From: Rubellicoccus peritrichatus
GTDB taxonomy: Bacteria; Verrucomicrobiota; Verrucomicrobiia; Opitutales; Cerasicoccaceae
Direction of reading: 5' to 3'
Assembly (NCBI RefSeq): GCF_033100135.1
Contig: NZ_CP136920.1
Span: 4,397,001-4,461,000 of the forward strand
Length of the DNA: 64,000 nucleotides
Part shown: one piece after another, positions 55,159 to 64,000 of the stretch
Position numbering within the stretch: position 1 is the stretch's first letter
Layout: each line of letters begins with the position of its first letter
Made by a program: the position numbers and the translations under genes
The notes under the pieces: generated by a model
What the model was told of the DNA's origin: nothing
The model's input: the letters and a program-made list of their open reading frames with translations, nothing else
Database searches by the model: none

Positions 55159-57915
55159 GTGCAGCGTATCTTCAAGTTCTGCCATGATCACGCGTGGTTT
55201 GTTTTTGTTTGCATCATTCTGGTGACGGCATGGTCGGTTTGGTCTGCACGCAGCCTGCGAGTCAATGTATCAACCGATGAGCTAATACCCAGGAACAGCG
55301 AACTCTGGAGCACTTATAACAAAGTCCGAAGCGAGTTTGGATCCGACCAGCTTGCCGTCATTTATATCGAGGATCAGCACCTCTTTAAACGCGACAAGCT
55401 GATCCGATTGAATGAATTGGTTGCTGAGCTACGCGGCCTTGATGGCGTAGAGCGCGTCGAAAGCCTTTTTTCTGTGAGCAACATTCGTGGAAGTGGAGGC
55501 TGGGTTGAAACCGGACCGCTCTTCGAAAGCATTCCCTCTTCCCAGGAGGCTATTGATGAAAAAAAGGAGCAGGCGCTAAAAAACCCGCTTTTGCTACGAA
55601 CTGTCCTATCACTGGATGGGCGGTCGACCCTCATATCGATTTATCTGGAGCCTTATCAGGATAATGATGCCGATGCAGACCGGCGTATATATAATTTGAT
55701 CGAGGAGAAACTCGCCCCCTTTCAAGCCGACTTCGCACGGTCATTTCAGGTTGGCTCCCCTGCCCTTCATACCCTGATGGCAGATTTCATTCTCGAGGAT
55801 CAACGTTTCCTCTTACCAGTCTCTGGCTTACTCCTGGTCCTACTCATTGGTTTGTTACTCGGTAGCGTGACCGGAGCGACGATACCGGTGCTCAATGCCG
55901 CAATCAGCACTGCCTGGACACTGGGCATAATGGCTTCATTGGATATTCCAATTTCAATGCTCAACTACATTGTCCCGGCCTTGATCCTCATCATTGGATC
56001 AACCGAGGACGTTCATATTCTGGTTGAATATCAGGAAGCCAAAGACTCCGGCCTCAAAGGTGCCGATGCCATTCAATTTATGGCCAGTCGCATAGGGCTC
56101 ACACTGGTCCTGACCGGCATCACAACCTCGCTTGGCTTTGCAGTAACGGGCTTGAATGCATTGGGCATCATGCAGGAATTTGGTGTATCGGCAGCGATCG
56201 GAATGGCAACACGCTTCCTGGTTTCTGTCTTGTTCGTTCCGGCATTTCTAAGGGTTTTCGGGAAATACCTGAGCAAGCACACACACGACGCGAAGGAAGA
56301 GCGCAGGCATCAGAAAATTGCTGAATGGATGAGCAATCTGATCAAAACAGTTCTGGCTCCCAAAGCAGCCAAAGTCATTGCTGTATTTGCACTGATTGCG
56401 ATCCCATCACTTATCCTGATTCCAAAGATAAAACTGAGTAACGACCTCATCAGCTTTCTCCACCCGGATTCCCTGATTGTTGAACGCCTCGATACTGTTG
56501 CCAATCAACTCAGTGGGAGCAAAGTTATTTATATCACACTCAATGGCAGGCCAGGTGACTTCAAATCACCCAAAATGCTCAAAAGACTTGAGAATATCAC
56601 TAACTGGCTTCGCGAAAGAAGCGACTTTGACACCGTCACTTCCCTCTCTGACTACATCTCTCTGGTGAACCGAGCGATGTATGGAGATGCTCCGAAAATG
56701 GAGATCGTCCCCGATAACGAAGCGCTTATTGCCCAGTACTTCCTCTTTTTTCACCGTTCAGACCTTCGTCCCTATGTCACGGGAGATTTCTCAACCGCCA
56801 ACATCGTCATACGATGTAACATCAATGACAGTAGCGCCTTGAACGCAACCGTGGAAGAAATCCGATCCGGCCTCCAGGGGGGACGCTTTGGTAACTTGAA
56901 CTTCTCCGTCACCGGAAAGTCAGTTCTTGTCTCATCAGCCGTGGACAAAATCGTCACTGGGCAAGTCATTTCGCTCAGCACCATGGTTCTGACACTGTTT
57001 ATTATCATTTCCGTGCTGTTTCTTTCTGTCCGAGCTGGTGTCATGAGTGTCATCGCCAACCTTTTTCCGGTCGCGATTGTCTTTGGCCTGATGGCATTGT
57101 TTGGGATATCGCTCAACATCGGAACCTGTATGGTGGCGGCCATCACCATTGGTATTGCCGTCGATGACACGCTCCACCTGATGGTGCGCTACAACAAGCA
57201 GCTTAAAAACCTGAAAAACGAAGTCCTCGCCATCGGTGCTTCGGTCAAAGAAGAGTTCTTCCCCGTGCTGACGACATCGCTTGGGCTTGCAGGCGGATTT
57301 ATCGTCCTTGGCTTTTCAAGCTTTGTCCCCGTGATGCAGTTTGGTTTCCTCAGCGCCCTCGTCATGGTTCTGGCCCTGATCACCGACTTGATCCTGACGC
57401 CTGTGCTGCTCTCAACCATCCGCCTGATAACTCTCTGGGATTTGCTTGGCTTCAAGCTGCGCGAAACGCTAATCAACACATCGCCCATGTTTTCCGGCAT
57501 GACAAAATGGCAGGCCAAAAAACTAATCCTGCTTGCGAACGTTGAAGAGCACAAAGCCGGAGCCACGGTCATCCGCGAAGGCGAAACCGGAAGCAGCATG
57601 TACGTCATAATCGAAGGGGAAATGGAAGTCTCCAAAACCGTCGAAGATGAGCGCATACCATTGACCACGTTAAAGCTCGGTGACCTCGTTGGTGAAGTGG
57701 CTCTCGTTTCCGAAACCCGCCGCACTGCAGATGTCACCGCCAAAACCGATGTCCGCGTTCTATCACTCGACTGGGACTCCCTCGTCCGCCTTCAACAGAC
57801 AAGCCCGTATCTCTCCTCCAGACTGTTTCTCAATCTTTCGAATATCCTCGGACAACGTTTGAAGTCCTCCATAAGCCGAATCGACAGCCGTGCACCATTC
57901 CCTAACAGGAAATAG
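55159..57915 (+). CDS. MMPL/RND-type exporter with C-terminal cyclic-nucleotide-binding domain
   Basis: 918 residues, GTG start at 55159. N-terminal membrane helix, large periplasmic loop (~40-190), helices with family motifs (ILIIGSTEDVHILVEYQEA, IAVDDTLHLMVRYNKQ), second periplasmic loop (~425-580) and the remaining helices. MMPL proteins move lipids or hydrophobic compounds with a proton gradient. Residues ~790-905 are a cNMP-binding/Crp-type beta-barrel: GATVIREGETGSSMYVIIEGEMEV and LKLGDLVGEVALVSETRRTADVTA. The RTA of the phosphate-binding cassette is present. This fusion would let cAMP or a related nucleotide gate export; that is inference. The preceding LolA-like gene is its partner. 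Confidence 0.88.
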   Translation: MQRIFKFCHDHAWFVFVCIILVTAWSVWSARSLRVNVSTDELIPRNSELWSTYNKVRSEFGSDQLAVIYIEDQHLFKRDKLIRLNELVAELRGLDGVERVESLFSVSNIRGSGGWVETGPLFESIPSSQEAIDEKKEQALKNPLLLRTVLSLDGRSTLISIYLEPYQDNDADADRRIYNLIEEKLAPFQADFARSFQVGSPALHTLMADFILEDQRFLLPVSGLLLVLLIGLLLGSVTGATIPVLNAAISTAWTLGIMASLDIPISMLNYIVPALILIIGSTEDVHILVEYQEAKDSGLKGADAIQFMASRIGLTLVLTGITTSLGFAVTGLNALGIMQEFGVSAAIGMATRFLVSVLFVPAFLRVFGKYLSKHTHDAKEERRHQKIAEWMSNLIKTVLAPKAAKVIAVFALIAIPSLILIPKIKLSNDLISFLHPDSLIVERLDTVANQLSGSKVIYITLNGRPGDFKSPKMLKRLENITNWLRERSDFDTVTSLSDYISLVNRAMYGDAPKMEIVPDNEALIAQYFLFFHRSDLRPYVTGDFSTANIVIRCNINDSSALNATVEEIRSGLQGGRFGNLNFSVTGKSVLVSSAVDKIVTGQVISLSTMVLTLFIIISVLFLSVRAGVMSVIANLFPVAIVFGLMALFGISLNIGTCMVAAITIGIAVDDTLHLMVRYNKQLKNLKNEVLAIGASVKEEFFPVLTTSLGLAGGFIVLGFSSFVPVMQFGFLSALVMVLALITDLILTPVLLSTIRLITLWDLLGFKLRETLINTSPMFSGMTKWQAKKLILLANVEEHKAGATVIREGETGSSMYVIIEGEMEVSKTVEDERIPLTTLKLGDLVGEVALVSETRRTADVTAKTDVRVLSLDWDSLVRLQQTSPYLSSRLFLNLSNILGQRLKSSISRIDSRAPFPNRK

Positions 57916-58502
57916 CAGTACACGAACCATTTCCATATAACACCTGGAAACGACCAAGCAGCATAACACTGTCCTAACGTCTTTTATATGACTGTAGAAA
58001 CCCGAAGTGTTTTCAAAATCGAGAGTAAGTGGCCTGAGAGACCATCACAATGCACGCTCATGCGCATCTGATCGGCAAACCGGTTTAATCCCAACTACGG
58101 GACCACCTACACGTACCATCCAATACTAACTACGGGCCTTCGCCCAAACCGAGGGAATTTTCAATTTCGGATTACTGATTGCGGATTTCAGAAGGTGAAG
58201 ACTTTAAGTTTCACCATTCCGCATTCCGCATTCGCAAATCGTCATTCCCGCTCAGCCTGGGCAAGCGCTATGTTGGACATTGCCCGGCAATAGGTATTCG
58301 AACCAAACTCCGCCCCGGCAATAAGGCATAGCCTAAGCACAACCTCCAGCCGCGAAGCCACTCGCCCACAAACATCGGTTTGGCAGACAGGATTGTTAAC
58401 AATAGAACCCTTGATGGCGGTAAGTAATTCATGCCCCAATTAGAGCAAAATGAAATATACGGTGCAACTAAAAAGTGAAAAAATGTTCACTTATTTTAAC
58501 TA
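57916..58502. other. Gap between exporter gene and cassette array
   Basis: Nearly 590 bp of non-coding sequence. It has an inverted repeat at 58194-58215 (GGTGAA/TTCACC) flanked by GCGGA-type direct repeats (ATTCCGCATTCCGCATTCGC near 58218), and short repeated phrases such as AACTACGGG. A minus-strand ORF at 58242-58439 has no gene-like traits. No integrase gene is seen. Confidence 0.5.
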
Positions 58503-58535
58503 ATTGAACTGCACGCCTTTAGCGTCTTGTTAGCT
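58503..58535 (+). repeat. Degenerate attC-like site or array edge (site 0)
   Basis: ATTGAAC at the left and GTTAGCT at the right, with CACGC-CTTTA-GCGTC between them. The right box is the same as in site 1, but the stem has mismatches and no cassette gene precedes it. It may be the left end of the array, a decayed attC or a former attI. Confidence 0.45.
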
Positions 58536-58574
58536 AAGTTTTTTCATAAATTAATACATATCAAAAAGAAGAAT

Positions 58575-58665
58575 TTAGCCACGGATTAACGCAGATGAAA
58601 CGCGGATTAAATTCAAACAATCCCGTTATTTTATCAGCGAAAATTCGCGTTCCATCTACGGCTAA
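58575..58665. repeat. Diverged copy of the CGCGGAT-type inverted repeat
   Basis: Arms TTAGCCACGGATTAACGCAG and a mismatched complement ending CTACGGCTAAC, with a central CGCGGATTAAATTCAA as in the copy at 46926-47004. It lies in the long leader of the first cassette, which also has phrases like CTCTGTGTCTCTGTGGCTAAT that commonly recur between genes of this phylum (recollection, not checked). Confidence 0.6.
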
Positions 58666-59051
58666 CAAAAACGAGCTCTGCGCTCTCTGTGTCTCTGTGG
58701 CTAATAAATAGCTTTATAAGGAATGCCCCCGCTCCTTTATGCTACCGTTAGAAACTCTCTGCCTTCATCTGAATAATCTGCGGATAGACTAAAGCCATGC
58801 ATTTGATGAGGGTTAAAGATCGGACTGCTTCCATGCCTTTTATGATCTCTGTGGTTAGCATCTTTTTACGCCTTGGCCTCCCTGCAAAAGAAAAAAACAG
58901 AAGCCTTCATGATATCTGGAAAATCTGATATTATTCCATTTAGGATATTATCCGTATAGGAACCCCATCCTTTATTGAGCAATTTCCCTTTTACTTACTA
59001 ACACTCTGGAATATTATCCGGAAATGAACTAATAACTTGTTGGACAAAAAA
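58666..59051. other. Leader of the first cassette gene
   Basis: About 385 bp without an ORF. It contains AT-rich sequence with repeated ATTATCCG (58945-59022), which could be a promoter or operator region. It is much longer than the 5-10 bp leaders of most other cassettes, so either a promoter cassette or inserted material is present. Confidence 0.35.
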
Positions 59052-59594
59052 ATGAAAATAATACTCAGCATCTTTTGTTTACTTGCCCTCTCATTCTGTG
59101 CCTTGCACGGTAACGAAGATGAACAAATTAAAATCTCGATAGAGAAGTATTTCAAAGCTTATCAAGAACAAGACTGGGAAACGGTTGTAGGACTATTCCA
59201 CCCTGAATTTATGGTCGAAATGAGGAGAGTTATGTTGTCCTCGATAGATCTTGAAAATGCGTCCGCTGAGGAACGTGAAGAGTGGCTTAAGAATTACAGA
59301 GTAGATACAGTCGAGGAGATCGAGAAGCTTAGTCCAAAAGAATTCTACCTAAGGATTCTTGAATCAACATCGCGGCTTGAACACATGAAAGTAATGAAAG
59401 AAATCAATACCTCTATCAGTGATATCGATATCCAATTAGATGAAGGGCGGTATATCGCAGCTGCGAGCGTTATTTCAATTTTACGAGATAAGAAGTTTAC
59501 GGGGACGACAATGTTCCTTTTTGAAGAGAATGAGGGGAGATATTTAATTGCGGATCTATACAAAAAGGATAAGAAAGTCCAACAAGTCGAGTGA
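59052..59594 (+). CDS. Cassette 1: exported NTF2-like protein of unknown function
   Basis: 180 residues from the ATG at 59052, which gives a signal peptide (MKIILSIFCLLALSFCALHG); an upstream TTG at 59037 is less good. The mature N-terminus IKISIEKYFKAYQEQDWETVVGLFHPEF is a classical NTF2/SnoaL-like opening. The rest is helix/strand with ASAEEREEWLKNYRVDT. A cassette-borne exported small protein may bind a small molecule or be structural; no function is known. The stop lies inside attC 1. Confidence 0.7.
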   Translation: MKIILSIFCLLALSFCALHGNEDEQIKISIEKYFKAYQEQDWETVVGLFHPEFMVEMRRVMLSSIDLENASAEEREEWLKNYRVDTVEEIEKLSPKEFYLRILESTSRLEHMKVMKEINTSISDIDIQLDEGRYIAAASVISILRDKKFTGTTMFLFEENEGRYLIADLYKKDKKVQQVE

Positions 59595-59631
59595 GGCAAC
59601 GCCTTTGGCGTGCCTCCTCTTATCGTTAGCT
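59577..59631 (+). repeat. attC site 1
   Basis: Left box GTCCAAC, right box GTTAGCT, 55 nt. A hairpin is formed by GAGGCAACGCC/GGCGTGCCTC with a TTT loop and one unpaired A, the usual asymmetry of attC bottom-strand folding. Confidence 0.85.
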
Positions 59632-59636
59632 AGAAA

Positions 59637-60101
59637 ATGAAATTAGAAAAGCTATATCACGATTCAAGAATTTCGGTTAATCAGCTTCCGAAAGGATTGT
59701 GGGTATATTTGCCACGTTCAAAATCTGACAACGAAACCGTTGAAAGATTACGGGCTTTATCAAAAGAAGAAATAAAGCCTCTATTACCATTTCTGCTTTC
59801 TTGGGTTCAGGATATGAATTGGCCGATATCTAGTGCGATGTCTGGCGTTTTAGTTTCAGCAGAAGATTATGTTGTGCCAGAAGTTGAATGGGTTCTGTCT
59901 GGTAAGGATGATATATGGAAAGCAAATTGCATAAGGTGCGTCTTATTGGATTTAAGAATCGATTATATTATACATTTGTTGCCTATTTTAAAAAGAATAG
60001 CGCATAGACCGACTGAAGGTGAAAAAGAAGAAGAAGCTGATGACGATGCGAAAGCTTGTATTGAATATATTGAGAAGGAAGGAGCTAACCAGGCGAGGTA
60101 G
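59637..60101 (+). CDS. Cassette 2: DUF5071-like protein
   Basis: 154 residues, six bases after attC 1. LLSWVQDMNWPISSAMSGVLVS and VEWVLSGKDDIWKANCIR resemble the helical DUF5071 family (W-x-QD-x-NWP, then a D-x-xWK motif), whose members are HEAT-like and functionally uncharacterised. The C-terminus is acidic and lysine-rich. The stop lies in attC 2. Family assignment is by memory of the motif. Confidence 0.75.
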   Translation: MKLEKLYHDSRISVNQLPKGLWVYLPRSKSDNETVERLRALSKEEIKPLLPFLLSWVQDMNWPISSAMSGVLVSAEDYVVPEVEWVLSGKDDIWKANCIRCVLLDLRIDYIIHLLPILKRIAHRPTEGEKEEEADDDAKACIEYIEKEGANQAR

Positions 60102-60148
60102 TCAATGCCTAGGCTGCGCCTAGTCATCGACTACTCTTTACGTTCGGC
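60083..60148 (+). repeat. attC site 2
   Basis: Left AGCTAAC, right GTTCGGC, 66 nt. Stem GAGGTAGTCAATGCCTAGGC pairs with GCGCCTAGTCATCGACTACTC with few mismatches; the loop contains CTG. Confidence 0.85.
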
Positions 60149-60157
60149 GAAAGAAAC

Positions 60158-60730
60158 ATGATCCCCCTCGACGATCCAATTTGGCAGACTTTAGAAGGCG
60201 GTTATCGAGTGCCATACAATCCAATGCCTGCTCTTGAACGGTTGGAAATGGCGGAAACAAGAGAAGAAGAGAAAGAAGTTTTTCGAGAGTTGTGGGATAA
60301 ATTGCACCACCAAGGTGACGTGGGAACGGCATCCTATGCGACCGTCCCTCACTTGGTCAAAATTGGAAAGAAGAAGGGAATAAAGAGTTATGACCTTCCT
60401 GCGCTCGTTGCTCTCGTAGAAATCCAGCGTCACGAATCGCAAAACCCAAGTTTGCCGGAAGAGTTTAAAGAAAGTTATGCGAACGCATTGGTTTCAATCC
60501 CTGAGCTTATCGCATCCAGTCTTCCAGGGGATTGTGATGAATACATCACTTCATCAGTCTGTGCGGCTTTGGCTGCATCCAAAGGTCAGTTCAACTTAGC
60601 TCGTGCATACCTTGAGATGAGAGAAGATGTTGCTTTGGAGTTCCTCAAGGAGCAGACTGGATATGAACCCTCAACAATGAATAAGACCGAACAAGTTGCT
60701 TCACGAAACCCGGACAAGCCGGTTTCGTGA
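60158..60730 (+). CDS. Cassette 3: HEAT-like helical protein
   Basis: 190 residues, no signal peptide. Helical repeats with LWDKLHHQGDVGTASYATVPHLVKIG and ALVEIQRHESQNPSL, LASSLPGDCDEYITSSVCAALAASKG (positions ~45-150). I do not know the family; similar cytosolic proteins often appear in integron cassettes. It may be a binding or immunity-type protein, which is speculation. The C-terminus lies in attC 3. Confidence 0.65.
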   Translation: MIPLDDPIWQTLEGGYRVPYNPMPALERLEMAETREEEKEVFRELWDKLHHQGDVGTASYATVPHLVKIGKKKGIKSYDLPALVALVEIQRHESQNPSLPEEFKESYANALVSIPELIASSLPGDCDEYITSSVCAALAASKGQFNLARAYLEMREDVALEFLKEQTGYEPSTMNKTEQVASRNPDKPVS

Positions 60731-60744
60731 GCTTGGCGTTCTCC
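60686..60744 (+). repeat. attC site 3
   Basis: Left ACCGAAC, right GTTCTCC, 59 nt. Stem GCTTCACGAAACC with GGTTTCGTGAGC (one unpaired base), loop CGGACAAGCC. Confidence 0.8.
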
Positions 60745-60752
60745 TAAAGAAA

Positions 60753-61160
60753 ATGCTTTTCACCGATTATTACGGAAAAATCAAAGCCCGCCCGGAGATG
60801 TATACGGGAAAGACTTCACTGGTAGCGTTGGTCTATCTTCTGGATGGTATAGATATTGCCGCAGAGAAAATGGTCTATATGCCAACTTTCAAATATTGGC
60901 TTCAAACGAAATACAACAGAAGAGACGGCATTATACCCATGATTCTTGAGAGAAGCGGTAGCGACGAAGAAGGGATGGGAGTATTTTTTGAAGAATTCGA
61001 TCTCTTTCTTGATGATTTTCAGAAAAGAGGACCTGAAGATATCCGGGAAGAAAACGATAAGTGGTTTTGCTTCCCTGCTTGGCAAGGAAAGCATTCTAAC
61101 ACTGAGTGGGAAATCCGCGTAATCAAACATGGAGAACCAGTCGGCATAGGTGACGATTGA
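60753..61160 (+). CDS. Cassette 4: small protein of unknown function
   Basis: 135 residues from the ATG at 60753; an ORF start at 60696 would lie inside the attC. AAAGAA precedes the start. Opening LFTDYYGKIKARPEMYTGK, then acidic EEGMGVFFEEFDLFLDDFQKRG and aromatic W/F residues near the C-terminus (DKWFCFPAWQGKHSNTEW). No domain recognised. The sequence is typical of acidic cassette proteins that might inhibit or bind nucleic-acid enzymes; this is conjecture. Confidence 0.6.
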   Translation: MLFTDYYGKIKARPEMYTGKTSLVALVYLLDGIDIAAEKMVYMPTFKYWLQTKYNRRDGIIPMILERSGSDEEGMGVFFEEFDLFLDDFQKRGPEDIREENDKWFCFPAWQGKHSNTEWEIRVIKHGEPVGIGDD

Positions 61161-61186
61161 CATCTCACCTAGCCTCATCGTTAGAT
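61131..61186 (+). repeat. attC site 4
   Basis: Left box GGAGAAC (weak), right box GTTAGAT, 56 nt. Stem AGGTGA/TCACCT inside, with partial outer pairing. The left box is poor, so this site rests on the right box, the stem and the position. Confidence 0.6.
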
Positions 61187-61195
61187 ATTAAAGCT

Positions 61196-61879
61196 ATGAC
61201 AGAGTTCTTAAAATTATTTGAACTGGCTAAGGCAGTCGTTGAAGAAGTCATTGAGCGTAAGAGAGAAATTAAAGATTCATCATGGGAAGAACTCATAGAA
61301 GCACTTGATGACCTCAGCGAAATCACCCGTCTCCATGCAGAAGCTATTGCAGAAGTCACTTTACCTATAGAATATTCTAACGATCTGCTAGAGACAGCGC
61401 ATCGATATTCGCGACTCGCGAAGAATCCATATTTCCCACAAGGATATAGTGCAATTCGCGGCACATTGGAATCTTGTCTTAGTGCCAAGATGTTTAAAGC
61501 AGAAGCGATTCAGTCTCATTTGACCAAAATCCTAGACGAACTAAGTAAATTTCAGGAAGGAGCCTTTTTACTTAGCTGGGACAGCTTCTCGATCTCAGAT
61601 GCATTTGCAAAAAGTGTTGATGTATATAATTCGGATAGTGAAAACGATTTTCACGATTTTCGTGAGGAGTTTCAGAAGTTCAAAGGAAGTTATGATGTTT
61701 TAATGAGAGAAACAAGTAAGCCTGATGAACTAGAGCAACCATCCACAAAGGAAGATCTCGTAGCCGTTTTGAGATCTTGGTGCATATCTTGGCAACGCCA
61801 TATCCATAATATCCTATATCGCGGTCGTGGTCTGAATTATGAAATTCATCGCCTTAAAAAATTAAAGAATTTCACCTAA
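61196..61879 (+). CDS. Cassette 5: long helical protein of unknown function
   Basis: 227 residues from the ATG at 61196, 10 bp after attC 4. Almost wholly alpha-helical with heptad-like stretches (ELAKAVVEEVIERKREIK, DSSWEELIEALDDLSEITRL) and a C-terminal half (AVLRSWCISWQRHIHNILYRGRG). No motif is recognised. The gene ends inside attC 5. Confidence 0.6.
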   Translation: MTEFLKLFELAKAVVEEVIERKREIKDSSWEELIEALDDLSEITRLHAEAIAEVTLPIEYSNDLLETAHRYSRLAKNPYFPQGYSAIRGTLESCLSAKMFKAEAIQSHLTKILDELSKFQEGAFLLSWDSFSISDAFAKSVDVYNSDSENDFHDFREEFQKFKGSYDVLMRETSKPDELEQPSTKEDLVAVLRSWCISWQRHIHNILYRGRGLNYEIHRLKKLKNFT

Positions 61880-61934
61880 CCAGTCGCTTCTGGCCAACGC
61901 CGCTAACGCGTCGCACCAGAGCTCCACGTTGTGC
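61874..61934 (+). repeat. attC site 5
   Basis: Left ACCTAAC matches RYYYAAC exactly, right GTTGTGC. Stem CGCTTCTGG...AACGC pairs with GCGT...CCAGAGC around CGCTAA. 61 nt. Confidence 0.8.
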
Positions 61935-61942
61935 AGAACTAA

Positions 61943-62410
61943 ATGAAAGAAGACCTGAACCAGATTTCTGAATTAGTGATCCGTCGAGTAATCCTTGAGG
62001 GCGATGAAACAGATCAGGTCACCATAAAAGAGGAAGAAGGAAATCAGGTTATATTTTATGAACGTGTGGACGGATATCGGCCTGAAAGAAATTTAGAGAA
62101 AACACTCAATCCAGATGGCTCGTCATGCCGAAAACTTCAGACTCTAGTAAATTTTAGCTTAGAAAACCGAAGCTTGAACTTTCAGGCGAAGGATGTGCTG
62201 GATGGAATCATATATGAGGTTCGAATCGAATCTTGTGGGACTACTTCTACGGCAGACTTATTTTGCCCAAGATATTCAAGTGACCCTCAAATAAAAAAGG
62301 CTGGCGAGCTACTTGATGCCCTGTTCGAGCAGATTGAAAACGAAGTTTCAAATGGAACAAAGGGCGCAACCAGGCGATTGTGGCAACGCCTTTGGCGCGC
62401 CACATCTTAA
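61943..62410 (+). CDS. Cassette 6: small acidic beta/alpha protein of unknown function
   Basis: 155 residues. N-terminal helices (NQISELVIRRVILEGDE), strand-rich middle (QVIFYERVDGYRPERN; SLENRSLNFQAKD) and a C-terminal helix (AGELLDALFEQIENEVSN). No domain recognised. The stop codon falls within attC 6. Confidence 0.6.
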   Translation: MKEDLNQISELVIRRVILEGDETDQVTIKEEEGNQVIFYERVDGYRPERNLEKTLNPDGSSCRKLQTLVNFSLENRSLNFQAKDVLDGIIYEVRIESCGTTSTADLFCPRYSSDPQIKKAGELLDALFEQIENEVSNGTKGATRRLWQRLWRATS

Positions 62411-62418
62411 CGCTAGAA
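62364..62418 (+). repeat. attC site 6
   Basis: Left GCGCAAC, right GCTAGAA (one T changed to C in the GTT), 55 nt. Stem TGTGGCAACGCC/GGCGCGCCACA with TTT loop, very like site 1. The changed core could reduce recombination. Confidence 0.7.
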
Positions 62419-62425
62419 TAAAACG

Positions 62426-62797
62426 ATGGGCAAGCATCCACCACTATCAGAGTTACAGAAATGTATTCGACGATGGAAGAAAGGCTATCTCTCGGAACGT
62501 GAAGTTGTAGATGGACTTTTTGCCAGTATGAAGAAGGAAGACTTGTTGACGCTCTCTGACGAATGTCCTGAGGCGCTATTGGCACTTTTGAAAACTGAAG
62601 TGAGCAGGTTCCCTAAAGCCGATAAGGGGTGGGATGGCTTTTATTTAGGAACTGTGTCGGAGTATAGTCCCAGTATTTCTCAAGAACGAATTCGAAAAAT
62701 AGGTTTAGAAGAAACTAAACGGATTCGTATCGGTGTTGAATTATTTAGGAATTGGCTAAAAGAAAATGGGGATAGTCGCAGTGAAAGGAAATTCTAA
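62426..62797 (+). CDS. Cassette 7: small basic protein of unknown function
   Basis: 123 residues. Lysine/arginine-rich (LQKCIRRWKKGYLSEREVV) and helical, with ETKRIRIGVELFRNWLKENG at the C-terminus, which looks capable of nucleic acid binding; that is inference. No known domain. It starts 8 bp after attC 6 and its stop overlaps attC 7. Confidence 0.6.
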   Translation: MGKHPPLSELQKCIRRWKKGYLSEREVVDGLFASMKKEDLLTLSDECPEALLALLKTEVSRFPKADKGWDGFYLGTVSEYSPSISQERIRKIGLEETKRIRIGVELFRNWLKENGDSRSERKF

Positions 62798-62860
62798 CAA
62801 GTCGGTGCAGACAACTCCGAACCCTGACGGGCTCTGCGTGTCTGGCCTCTGACGTTGGGA
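62792..62860 (+). repeat. attC site 7 (boundaries ambiguous)
   Basis: Left TTCTAAC, right GTTGGGA, 69 nt, with pairing CAGACA/TGTCTG and CCC/GGG around TGAC. A longer alternative ends at GTTCGGC (62919-62925) and would include the hairpin TTGGGACGG/CCGTCCCAA at 62855-62886. Confidence 0.6.
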
Positions 62861-63034
62861 CGGACTCGCTTCGCTCGCCGTCCCAACTCCGCACTGAGCC
62901 AGCTCAAGCAGCTTGTCGGTTCGGCGCGAAGCGCCTCCCAATAAATTACTTGAGGCGACTTCGGGATTGTCACTTCGCTAGCAAGTTTGCTATGTTCCAG
63001 ACCTTCGCGCCTCAGCGCGGAGTCCTAGAAGGAA
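62861..63034. other. Non-coding leader of cassette 8, possibly a decayed cassette
   Basis: 174 bp without an ORF. It contains the hairpin arm of the previous site, a GTTCGGC box at 62919, GCGAAGCGCC and a hairpin TTCGCGCCTCAGCGCGGA at 62999-63018 followed by GTCCTAGAAGG, which resembles a mutated GTT box. It could be a lost cassette. Confidence 0.35.
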
Positions 63035-63712
63035 ATGAAATACATCCACGACCTATTGCAGCGTATGAAGTCTAAAGAAAGACTTCCAGGAACTGACGAT
63101 CATGGGAGCAGCAAAGACCGTGTTGCGTGGCAAGCAACACGTGAAGCTGAAACAATTTCAGACACAGAGCACCTCAAGAAAATCGAACTTCTTTTGAAGA
63201 AGAAAATCAGTAAAAAAGATCTGAGAAGTCTGATATTTATCATCAGCTGGATCATACATAATACTGGCAACGCTCATGCAAAAGAAGTTTATCTGTCGAT
63301 CCCATGGGAGGACGCTGACGATTACACTATGATGAACCTAATTGATGGTGCCATAAGAGCAGATTTGATCGAATATATTGATCGAGTTCGCCAGATGATC
63401 AAAAAAACTGAATCAGGAAGTGATCACTACTCCTCAGCAATAGAGTATTTCGGAAAGATTGGAAAGTTGGATGCATTGCATGACATTGGAAGCGAACTCG
63501 ACGCTGACTGCTCTGGCCATTTTGAGCCGTTCATCTGCTGCACAGAATTAGCAAGAATAGGAAGCACTGATGCCATCCCCTACCTTGAACGAGCAATCGA
63601 AAGGCATCAAAAGGGAAGGAAGCAGTGGCAAAAGCAAACTATTGCATGGTCTACAAGAGCTATCGAAAGAATCCAGAACAATGAAGATCCAGCAACCCCA
63701 TGGTGGAACTAA
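63035..63712 (+). CDS. Cassette 8: HEAT-like helical protein
   Basis: 225 residues, cytoplasmic. Helical-repeat character: LRSLIFIISWIIHNTGNAHAKE, SSAIEYFGKIGKLDALHDIGSEL and IGSTDAIPYLERAIERHQKG, with D-A and A-I-pY-L motifs common in HEAT/Armadillo-like solenoids. Such proteins bind other proteins. The stop codon TAA ends just before attC 8. Confidence 0.65.
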   Translation: MKYIHDLLQRMKSKERLPGTDDHGSSKDRVAWQATREAETISDTEHLKKIELLLKKKISKKDLRSLIFIISWIIHNTGNAHAKEVYLSIPWEDADDYTMMNLIDGAIRADLIEYIDRVRQMIKKTESGSDHYSSAIEYFGKIGKLDALHDIGSELDADCSGHFEPFICCTELARIGSTDAIPYLERAIERHQKGRKQWQKQTIAWSTRAIERIQNNEDPATPWWN

Positions 63713-63714
63713 AA

Positions 63715-63771
63715 CTAGAACTAGCCTATGGTGGCAACGGCTGACGCCGTCGCCACATCTCAACGTTCGCA
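63715..63771 (+). repeat. attC site 8
   Basis: Left CTAGAAC, right GTTCGCA, 57 nt. Stem TGGTGGCAACGGC with GCCGTCGCCACA, loop TGAC, one unpaired A as in site 1. Confidence 0.8.
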
Positions 63772-63775
63772 GAAC

Positions 63776-64000
63776 ATGAAAAAAGTAACCATCATATCAC
63801 TCCTAATCGCAACCGGTCTATTGAATGCAAAGATTCCGTTAGAATTCACCGAAATCGAGTATGTCGCGAAACATCTAGACCGAATAAAAATAGAAGAAGT
63901 GAACCTAATCGAAACCGATGAACTTAAAATTGGAAGCGTGATTGAAGTTATTGGAAGCTACGAGCTAGGGTCTACCCAAAACGCTCTGTTAGGGCTTTCG
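63776..64000 (+). CDS. Cassette 9: exported protein, N-terminal part
   Basis: The gene runs off the right edge after 75 codons. Signal peptide MKKVTIISLLIATGLLNA, then IPLEFTEIEYVAKHLDRIKIEE and KIGSVIEVIGSYELGS. It starts 5 bp after attC 8, the same spacing as the other cassettes. Function unknown. Confidence 0.65.
   Translation, partial: MKKVTIISLLIATGLLNAKIPLEFTEIEYVAKHLDRIKIEEVNLIETDELKIGSVIEVIGSYELGSTQNALLGLS

Follow-up and report, generated by a model that had tools for sequence, protein, structure and literature searches.

The last part of a 64,000-nucleotide window of the Rubellicoccus peritrichatus chromosome (G000:C1:4397001-4461000, within a single-contig genome of 5,798,774 bases) carries an array of integron cassettes without an integrase. 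This array, here called array A, extends from about 58907 to about 64380 in window coordinates, and so past the window edge, and comprises nine cassette genes plus one gene remnant. With high confidence we regard it as a CALIN (cluster of attC sites lacking an integrase) in which each of the nine cassettes has its own attC and which has kept its attI site and possibly a cassette promoter (Pc), as an attC array and a predicted attI head are present and the integrase gene, intI, is without a match over cut-off in the genome. An earlier sequence-only reading of this DNA had proposed a cassette array lacking an integrase, and this is borne out by an independent covariance model, by the covariation of the sites and by the lack of any match over cut-off to the integron-integrase model TIGR02249. 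It had let the array begin at 58503, which has to be corrected, as the actual start is the predicted attI (58907-59045) and the end lies at about 64380, whereas its count of eight complete same-strand small genes and a partial one, cut by the window edge, holds.

The attC sites and cassette genes of array A

Two covariance models were used. The first, R1, was built from eight attC sites that adjoin integrases in other genomes (five in locus L058, one in L056 and two in L063), none of them from this genome; the second, R2, drew in part on sites of this genome, and its matches here are therefore not independent. On L023, the 20 kb locus containing array A (L023 coordinates are window coordinates minus 58000), R1 gave eight matches up to E 0.5, all on the plus strand and all in array A, with E-values from 3.6e-10 to 8.4e-7, and zero matches at that threshold in the remaining part of the locus. 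A covariance model run on the extended sequence was the check that the sequence-only reading had proposed, and the external model recovers eight of the nine sites, seven of them inside the window. The remaining site, s6, was missed by R1 and detected by R2 alone (E 8.4e-5), so that all eight attC-like elements that had been seen in the window are found again by one model or the other. Genome-wide, R1 gave at least 18 matches up to E 10, at least seven of them in array A (E 1.1e-7 to 2.4e-4), these counts being lower bounds because 150 of 342 candidates were scored; site s9 was not among the matches listed and reached 39.9 bits in a separate run. Rfam returned no attC-type match in either stretch: its hits in the window were confined to two tRNAs, and the three in L023 were below threshold.

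All nine sites lie on the plus strand. They are s1 at 59577-59631 (GTCCAAC ... GTTAGCT), s2 at 60083-60148 (the top site genome-wide among the matches listed, E 1.1e-7), s3 at 60686-60744, s4 at 61131-61186 (right box GTTAGAT, an exact GTTRRRY), s5 at 61874-61934 (left box ACCTAAC, an exact RYYYAAC), s6 at 62364-62418, s7 at 62792-62860, s8 at 63715-63771 and, just outside the window, s9 at 64201-64266. The left box retains AAC in all nine and the right box GTT in eight. The earlier description of left boxes exact at sites 1 and 5 is correct, and that of right boxes as GTTRRRY with variants stands for the eight sites with GTT and fails at s6, where the right box is altered to GCTAGAA. Furthermore, the sites share a fold: in an alignment of eight of them (A4), 91.2% of cells pair and 12 of 13 pairs have changed on both sides, with a covariation score of 0.728, which none of 500 shuffles reached (mean 0.202) and which compares with 0.085-0.168 for slid partners.

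One candidate was set aside. A degenerate additional attC had been suggested at 58503-58540; we reject it, as it has no R1 match in L023 and none among the R2 genome matches listed (150 of 1163 candidates scored, so that counts are lower bounds), and its position is close to the end of a stretch of which the genome has further copies. A crude scan for AAC...GTT with a hairpin gave many false hits.

The genes fit between these sites as cassettes do in the earlier description, with stops in or beside attC and most of the following starts 5-10 bp later: eight of the nine stop codons end inside the gene's own attC, that of c8 falling three positions before it, and the distance from the attC end to the next start codon is 5-10 positions in eight of nine cases (the last being that of the 35-aa remnant), the exception being 175. 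On the plus strand follow c1 (59052-59594, 180 aa), c2 (59637-60101, 154 aa), c3 (60158-60730, 190 aa), c4 (60753-61160, 135 aa), c5 (61196-61879, 227 aa), c6 (61943-62410, 155 aa), c7 (62426-62797, 123 aa), c8 (63035-63712, 225 aa) and c9 (63776-64219, in the window to 64000, 147 aa). After s9, outside the window, comes the remnant gene (64271-64378, plus strand), behind which no attC match was found in L023.

Only one of the nine products has a Pfam match over cut-off, namely c2, which belongs to DUF5071 (PF16804, E 9.8e-28). The other eight are without a Pfam or NCBIfam match over cut-off, and PADLOC and NCBIfam gave no hit for any of the nine. Below cut-off, c1 has a weak SnoaL-like similarity and c8 is perhaps HEAT-like; by eye, the hydrophobic N-terminus of c1 reads as a signal peptide. 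The single PHROGs hit, a marginal one for c5, is to a family without known function. A contig search with c2 gave eight loci at 32-48% identity, seven with Bacillus- or Paenibacillus-like titles and one from Massilia, and when all nine proteins were compared by tblastn with the collected loci (14 own-window records left out, E 1e-3), only these c2 loci matched. The earlier statement that the function of every product is unknown is thus mostly right, with c2 as the exception, and array A offers a source of uncharacterised proteins.

The attI core and the arrays that share it

Ahead of c1, at 58907-59045 on the plus strand, lies the predicted attI, with the core AATGAACTAATAACTTG^TT at 59023-59041, a right box GTTGGAC at 59039-59045 and a probable crossover at G^TT (59039^59040). 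The sequence-only reading had seen neither attI nor Pc upstream of the cassettes; the former claim is overturned by this site, whose core is common to intact integrons in the order, and the latter is probably wrong as well, given a candidate Pc at 58990-59017 on the plus strand (TTTACT-16-TATTAT, 9/12) with a motif at its -35 position that recurs across attI loci. When 13 attI loci are aligned, nine of them read TTGAC at the corresponding position, and the three from this genome read TTTAC.

The stretch before c1 recurs ahead of two further arrays of the same genome, array B (288 kb; about 288.2-298 kb) and array C (2005 kb; about 2000.3-2005.1 kb), both headed by attI, with limits read by eye as also for array D below. 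Arrays A and B form a close pair that is 84% identical over 1,128 aligned bp, the alignment stopping within the attI core. A similar break is found in G063 (L124) and G077 (L130), which are 93% identical over the last 186 bp, up to the GTT, and then no longer match, with only 124 bp following attI in G077. Homology between A and C begins at about 58907, at a CAT 112 bp ahead of the core. In G029, the start codon of an intact intI lies 107 bp from the core on the opposite strand; the distance to the core is similar, and the CAT of array A is two alignment columns off that start codon.

A pattern made from the core, AATGANNTANTAACTTGTT, has 12 matches in six of 177 genomes of the order, where the reversed control pattern has none. 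In 384 genomes of the class it gave nine matches in four genomes, all of them among these 12, and thus none outside the order. Three of the 12 cores lie 482-561 bp from the hidden Markov model (HMM) start of an intact, divergent intI (G029:C5, G077:C44 and G094:C1:2609623), one (G029:C60) adjoins an intI remnant by HMM, and eight have no intI HMM match alongside (two here, two each in G114 and G094, one each in G077 and G063), one of these, G094:C1:115434, having a short intI piece by tblastn. At these loci R2 gave 14 attC sites, four of them from this genome, itself one of the sources of R2; all 14 lie downstream on the strand of the core and are spread over eight of the 12 loci. Of the other four, three are cut by a contig end within 460 bp. 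As a short pattern suffices to recover it, the attI core appears to be recognisable in this order.

Besides this genome, G114 is a second one without an intI match over cut-off; it has two attI cores (G114:C5:23173, L121, and G114:C11:21855, L127), one with attC downstream. A further observation concerns G063 and G077, which belong to one genus and share flank and attI, with a different sequence right after GTT and a full-length intI on another contig in each, and which we consider a candidate for cassette capture in trans.

Upstream of attI lies a non-coding leader with dispersed repeats (57985-58906, plus strand), which together with attI is 84% identical to the leader of array B (genome about 287809-288928). 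Searched against the genome, the stretch 58401-59039 has at least 33 matches including itself, several of 70-200 bp, and these appear as dispersed intergenic repeats (40 of 71 were scored, so that counts are lower bounds).

A fourth array, D (5421.5-5430.2 kb, L087 1500-10200, minus strand), has no exact attI core by pattern search, and small clusters or single attC sites occur at 94, 1030-1031, 2849, 2917, 3310 and 3478 kb; several of the attC sites outside array A, most of those in array D among them, have weak scores. All eight scanned proteins of array D have family matches over cut-off (GNAT, PRA isomerase-like, DNA alkylation repair, cupin, DUF2200, VanY-like, RibD_C and nitrilase-like). 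With R2 at E up to 0.001, attC sites are present in at least 13 of 35 relatives, or at least 14 of 36 genomes with this one, at most 122 candidates having been scored per genome, which makes the counts lower bounds.

The arrays have in addition a structured non-coding repeat in common, which in array A occupies 62852-63030 (plus strand). The genome has 12 copies of it, aligned over 63-179 bp and confined to arrays A-D, and 35 other genomes have none at E 1e-5; those copies whose sequence was read end just before a start codon. One possibility is a small cassette without a coding gene, behind which stands a long attC-like element with an altered right box (about 62880-63028), as the arms, the boxes at the ends and a single fold would suggest. 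The repeat may be a long attC type, or else a promoter or 5' leader element.

Array A as a whole sits between a gene for an MMPL-type transporter with a C-terminal cyclic-nucleotide-binding domain (55159-57915, by a Pfam-type family match) and a large opposite-strand membrane-protein gene (L023 8873-6519), which we take, from its sequence, for a KefB-like antiporter.

The missing integrase and the possible origin of the array

TIGR02249 has no match above cut-off in the whole genome, in agreement with the earlier statement that no intI is seen upstream. The top scores do not exceed 82.7 bits and fall on open reading frames of 316 aa (82.7 bits) and 332 aa, both of which we take for Xer-type recombinases, and on other recombinase pieces. 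In a set of 36 genomes, made up of this one and 35 relatives, eight exceed the cut-off, their best hits scoring 330-418 bits, and the match in G003 has an internal stop. Two truncated forms stand beside attI cores: at G029:C60, intI residues 1-77 are fused to residues 400-446, and at G094:C1:115434 only the first 54 residues are left. Next to the attI sites of the three arrays A, B and C no such remnant was found; the sole candidate, at array C, was dismissed (E 0.22, wrong orientation).

A CALIN is marked by at least two clustered attC sites of conserved fold and by no integron integrase nearby. In array A, eight such sites are found by R1 and a ninth by R2, their covariation is not reached in any of the 500 shuffles, and TIGR02249 detects no integrase over its cut-off nearby or elsewhere in the genome. 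A complete integron would have attI beside its first cassette as well as an intI gene; the first is what sequence and position suggest here, and the second has no match over the TIGR02249 cut-off in this genome. We propose that IntI, acting in cis or in trans, would have inserted the cassettes successively through recombination of folded attC with attI at G^TT (59039^59040), that the proximal cassettes would be transcribed from Pc, and that intI would have been lost afterwards. As a consequence of this loss, array A would now be frozen unless an IntI enters the cell.

Several observations weigh against this reading. The eight external attC sites of R1 were chosen by eye from a scan that also returned false hits and which, even in the stricter form of AAC...GTT plus hairpin that supplied them, still matched shuffled sequence; likewise, alignment A4 was fitted to the model structure, so that its covariation leans partly on the model. 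At the head of the arrays, the attI core of array B is altered (AACTTAGTAG), no attC match lies within 1.5 kb of the core at G114:C5, and arrays A and C align for 16-18 bp beyond GTT, through the A-rich gene start. When 13 attI loci, namely the 12 and array B, are compared without gaps, identity is about 0.40 before the core and 0.42 after it, where gene starts are A-rich; as the upstream flank is thus no more alike than the downstream one, the sequence break at GTT rests on the close pairs. About 0.9 sigma-70-like matches as good as the candidate Pc are expected by chance in the stretch scanned for it, and its support is therefore positional. Broken tyrosine-recombinase pieces in the genome (G000:C1:1469720, 4059085-4061276 and 4091734-4092169) resemble IntI and Xer about equally, so that one of them may be a distant intI relic. 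Finally, the relatives searched include none of the same genus, and cassette gain, loss or fixed order are thus not traceable.

That the hairpins of array A are ordinary intergenic repeats or terminators of a normal gene cluster is nonetheless scarcely credible: dispersed intergenic repeats do occur in this genome, the leader included, but these hairpins are recovered by a model made from the attC sites of other genomes, nearly all of their ends retain the AAC and GTT boxes, and comparable sites adjoin intI elsewhere. An intI present in the organism and missing from the assembly, on a lost plasmid or in an uncovered part, is improbable. A completeness of 97.48% and the presence of one contig only leave some room for it; yet this contig is a single one of 5.8 Mb, and intI adjoins none of the three attI copies. 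We hold it for quite improbable, too, that a distant IntI placed the cassettes of array A off-target, at chance chromosomal sites without attI. Such insertion is one of the three routes to CALINs proposed in the literature, next to intI loss and rearrangement (PMC8618304), and small clusters of this genome (e.g. at 94, 1030 and 3478 kb), or array D without its exact core, could be of this type, but array A is headed by the attI core common to intact integrons.

Within the proposed history, the place of the integrase can be argued in two ways. Loss of intI in place is favoured by the existence of truncated forms (G029:C60, G094:C1:115434) and by the A-C homology, which starts near the intI start of relatives. 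Capture in trans is favoured because the leader of A and B is duplicated and their cassettes differ, and because G063 and G077 differ right after a common solo attI, with a full-length intI on another contig in each; both may be true. In the stricter version, the arrays are satellites, that is, copies of the attI module came to lie at several loci, where a single IntI encoded at a distance acted on them in trans, and array A never had an adjoining intI. We consider this a real possibility, albeit one to which we do not commit ourselves, and it overlaps our explanation, which leaves cis or trans open. Accordant with it, the A/B alignment has no cassette-level DNA match beyond the core, array C shares merely about 150 bp around attI, of the three attI cores in G094 only one adjoins an intact intI, and the flanks of G077 and G063 are 91-97% identical up to the attI GTT and differ after it. 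On the other hand, the G077 copy meets a contig end after its 124 bp and that of G063 also lies near one, both genomes being drafts of 200-260 contigs in which an intI "elsewhere" means on another contig; moreover, G029:C60 and G094:C1:115434 indicate that a solo attI can also arise by deletion of intI in place. More tentatively still, one may think of a distributed integron, in which attI modules multiplied over the chromosome in this order and were filled in trans by one integrase. This genome and G114 would then represent late stages, with the integrase gone and several attI-headed arrays left, and some CALINs, often taken for debris, would be former satellite platforms.

Relation to known integrase-less arrays

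CALINs and complete integrons are reported about equally often (2961 versus 2760), and attI is described as poorly characterised outside class 1 (both in the available text of PMC9024848). IntegronFinder, according to its accessible description, has no attI detection outside class 1, and the attI part of array A would therefore go unseen. Compared with CALINs generally, array A retains attI and a possible Pc. In our view, the interest lies in the dispersed attI-headed arrays more than in array A alone; in open-licence PubMed Central, which leaves most papers of subscription journals outside, we found no report of several such arrays in one chromosome without intI. With an attI core recognisable by a pattern, the question of origin becomes testable array by array, and the core also marks the first cassettes possibly expressed from Pc. 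Core sequences have been given for other systems, such as AATAAAATGTTRRRY for truncated attI2 sites (PMC12901181, as excerpted).

Three systems come close. The CALINs of Xanthomonas resemble those of this genome in being integrase-less arrays at several fixed loci away from intI; the accessible part of that report names no attI (PMC12444791), whereas here attI accounts for the position of three arrays. In the chromosomal integron of Treponema phagedenis, attC sites and cassettes have stayed and intI is gone, as in array A; that study, in its available text, is centred on attC, not attI (PMC3607928), whereas here attI marks the end of the platform, and partly deleted intI genes adjoin the same attI core in other genomes. 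The nearest and, judging by the available text, single published precedent for a CALIN with its own attI is that of the Shewanella prophage M16-3, which like array A has attI at its start and a related core: the published Shewanella attI ends ACTAATAAAATGTT, where array A has ACTAATAACTTGTT (PMC9892861). There, a complete integron resides in the same prophage; here, three attI-headed arrays are spread over a chromosome that gave no intI match over cut-off.

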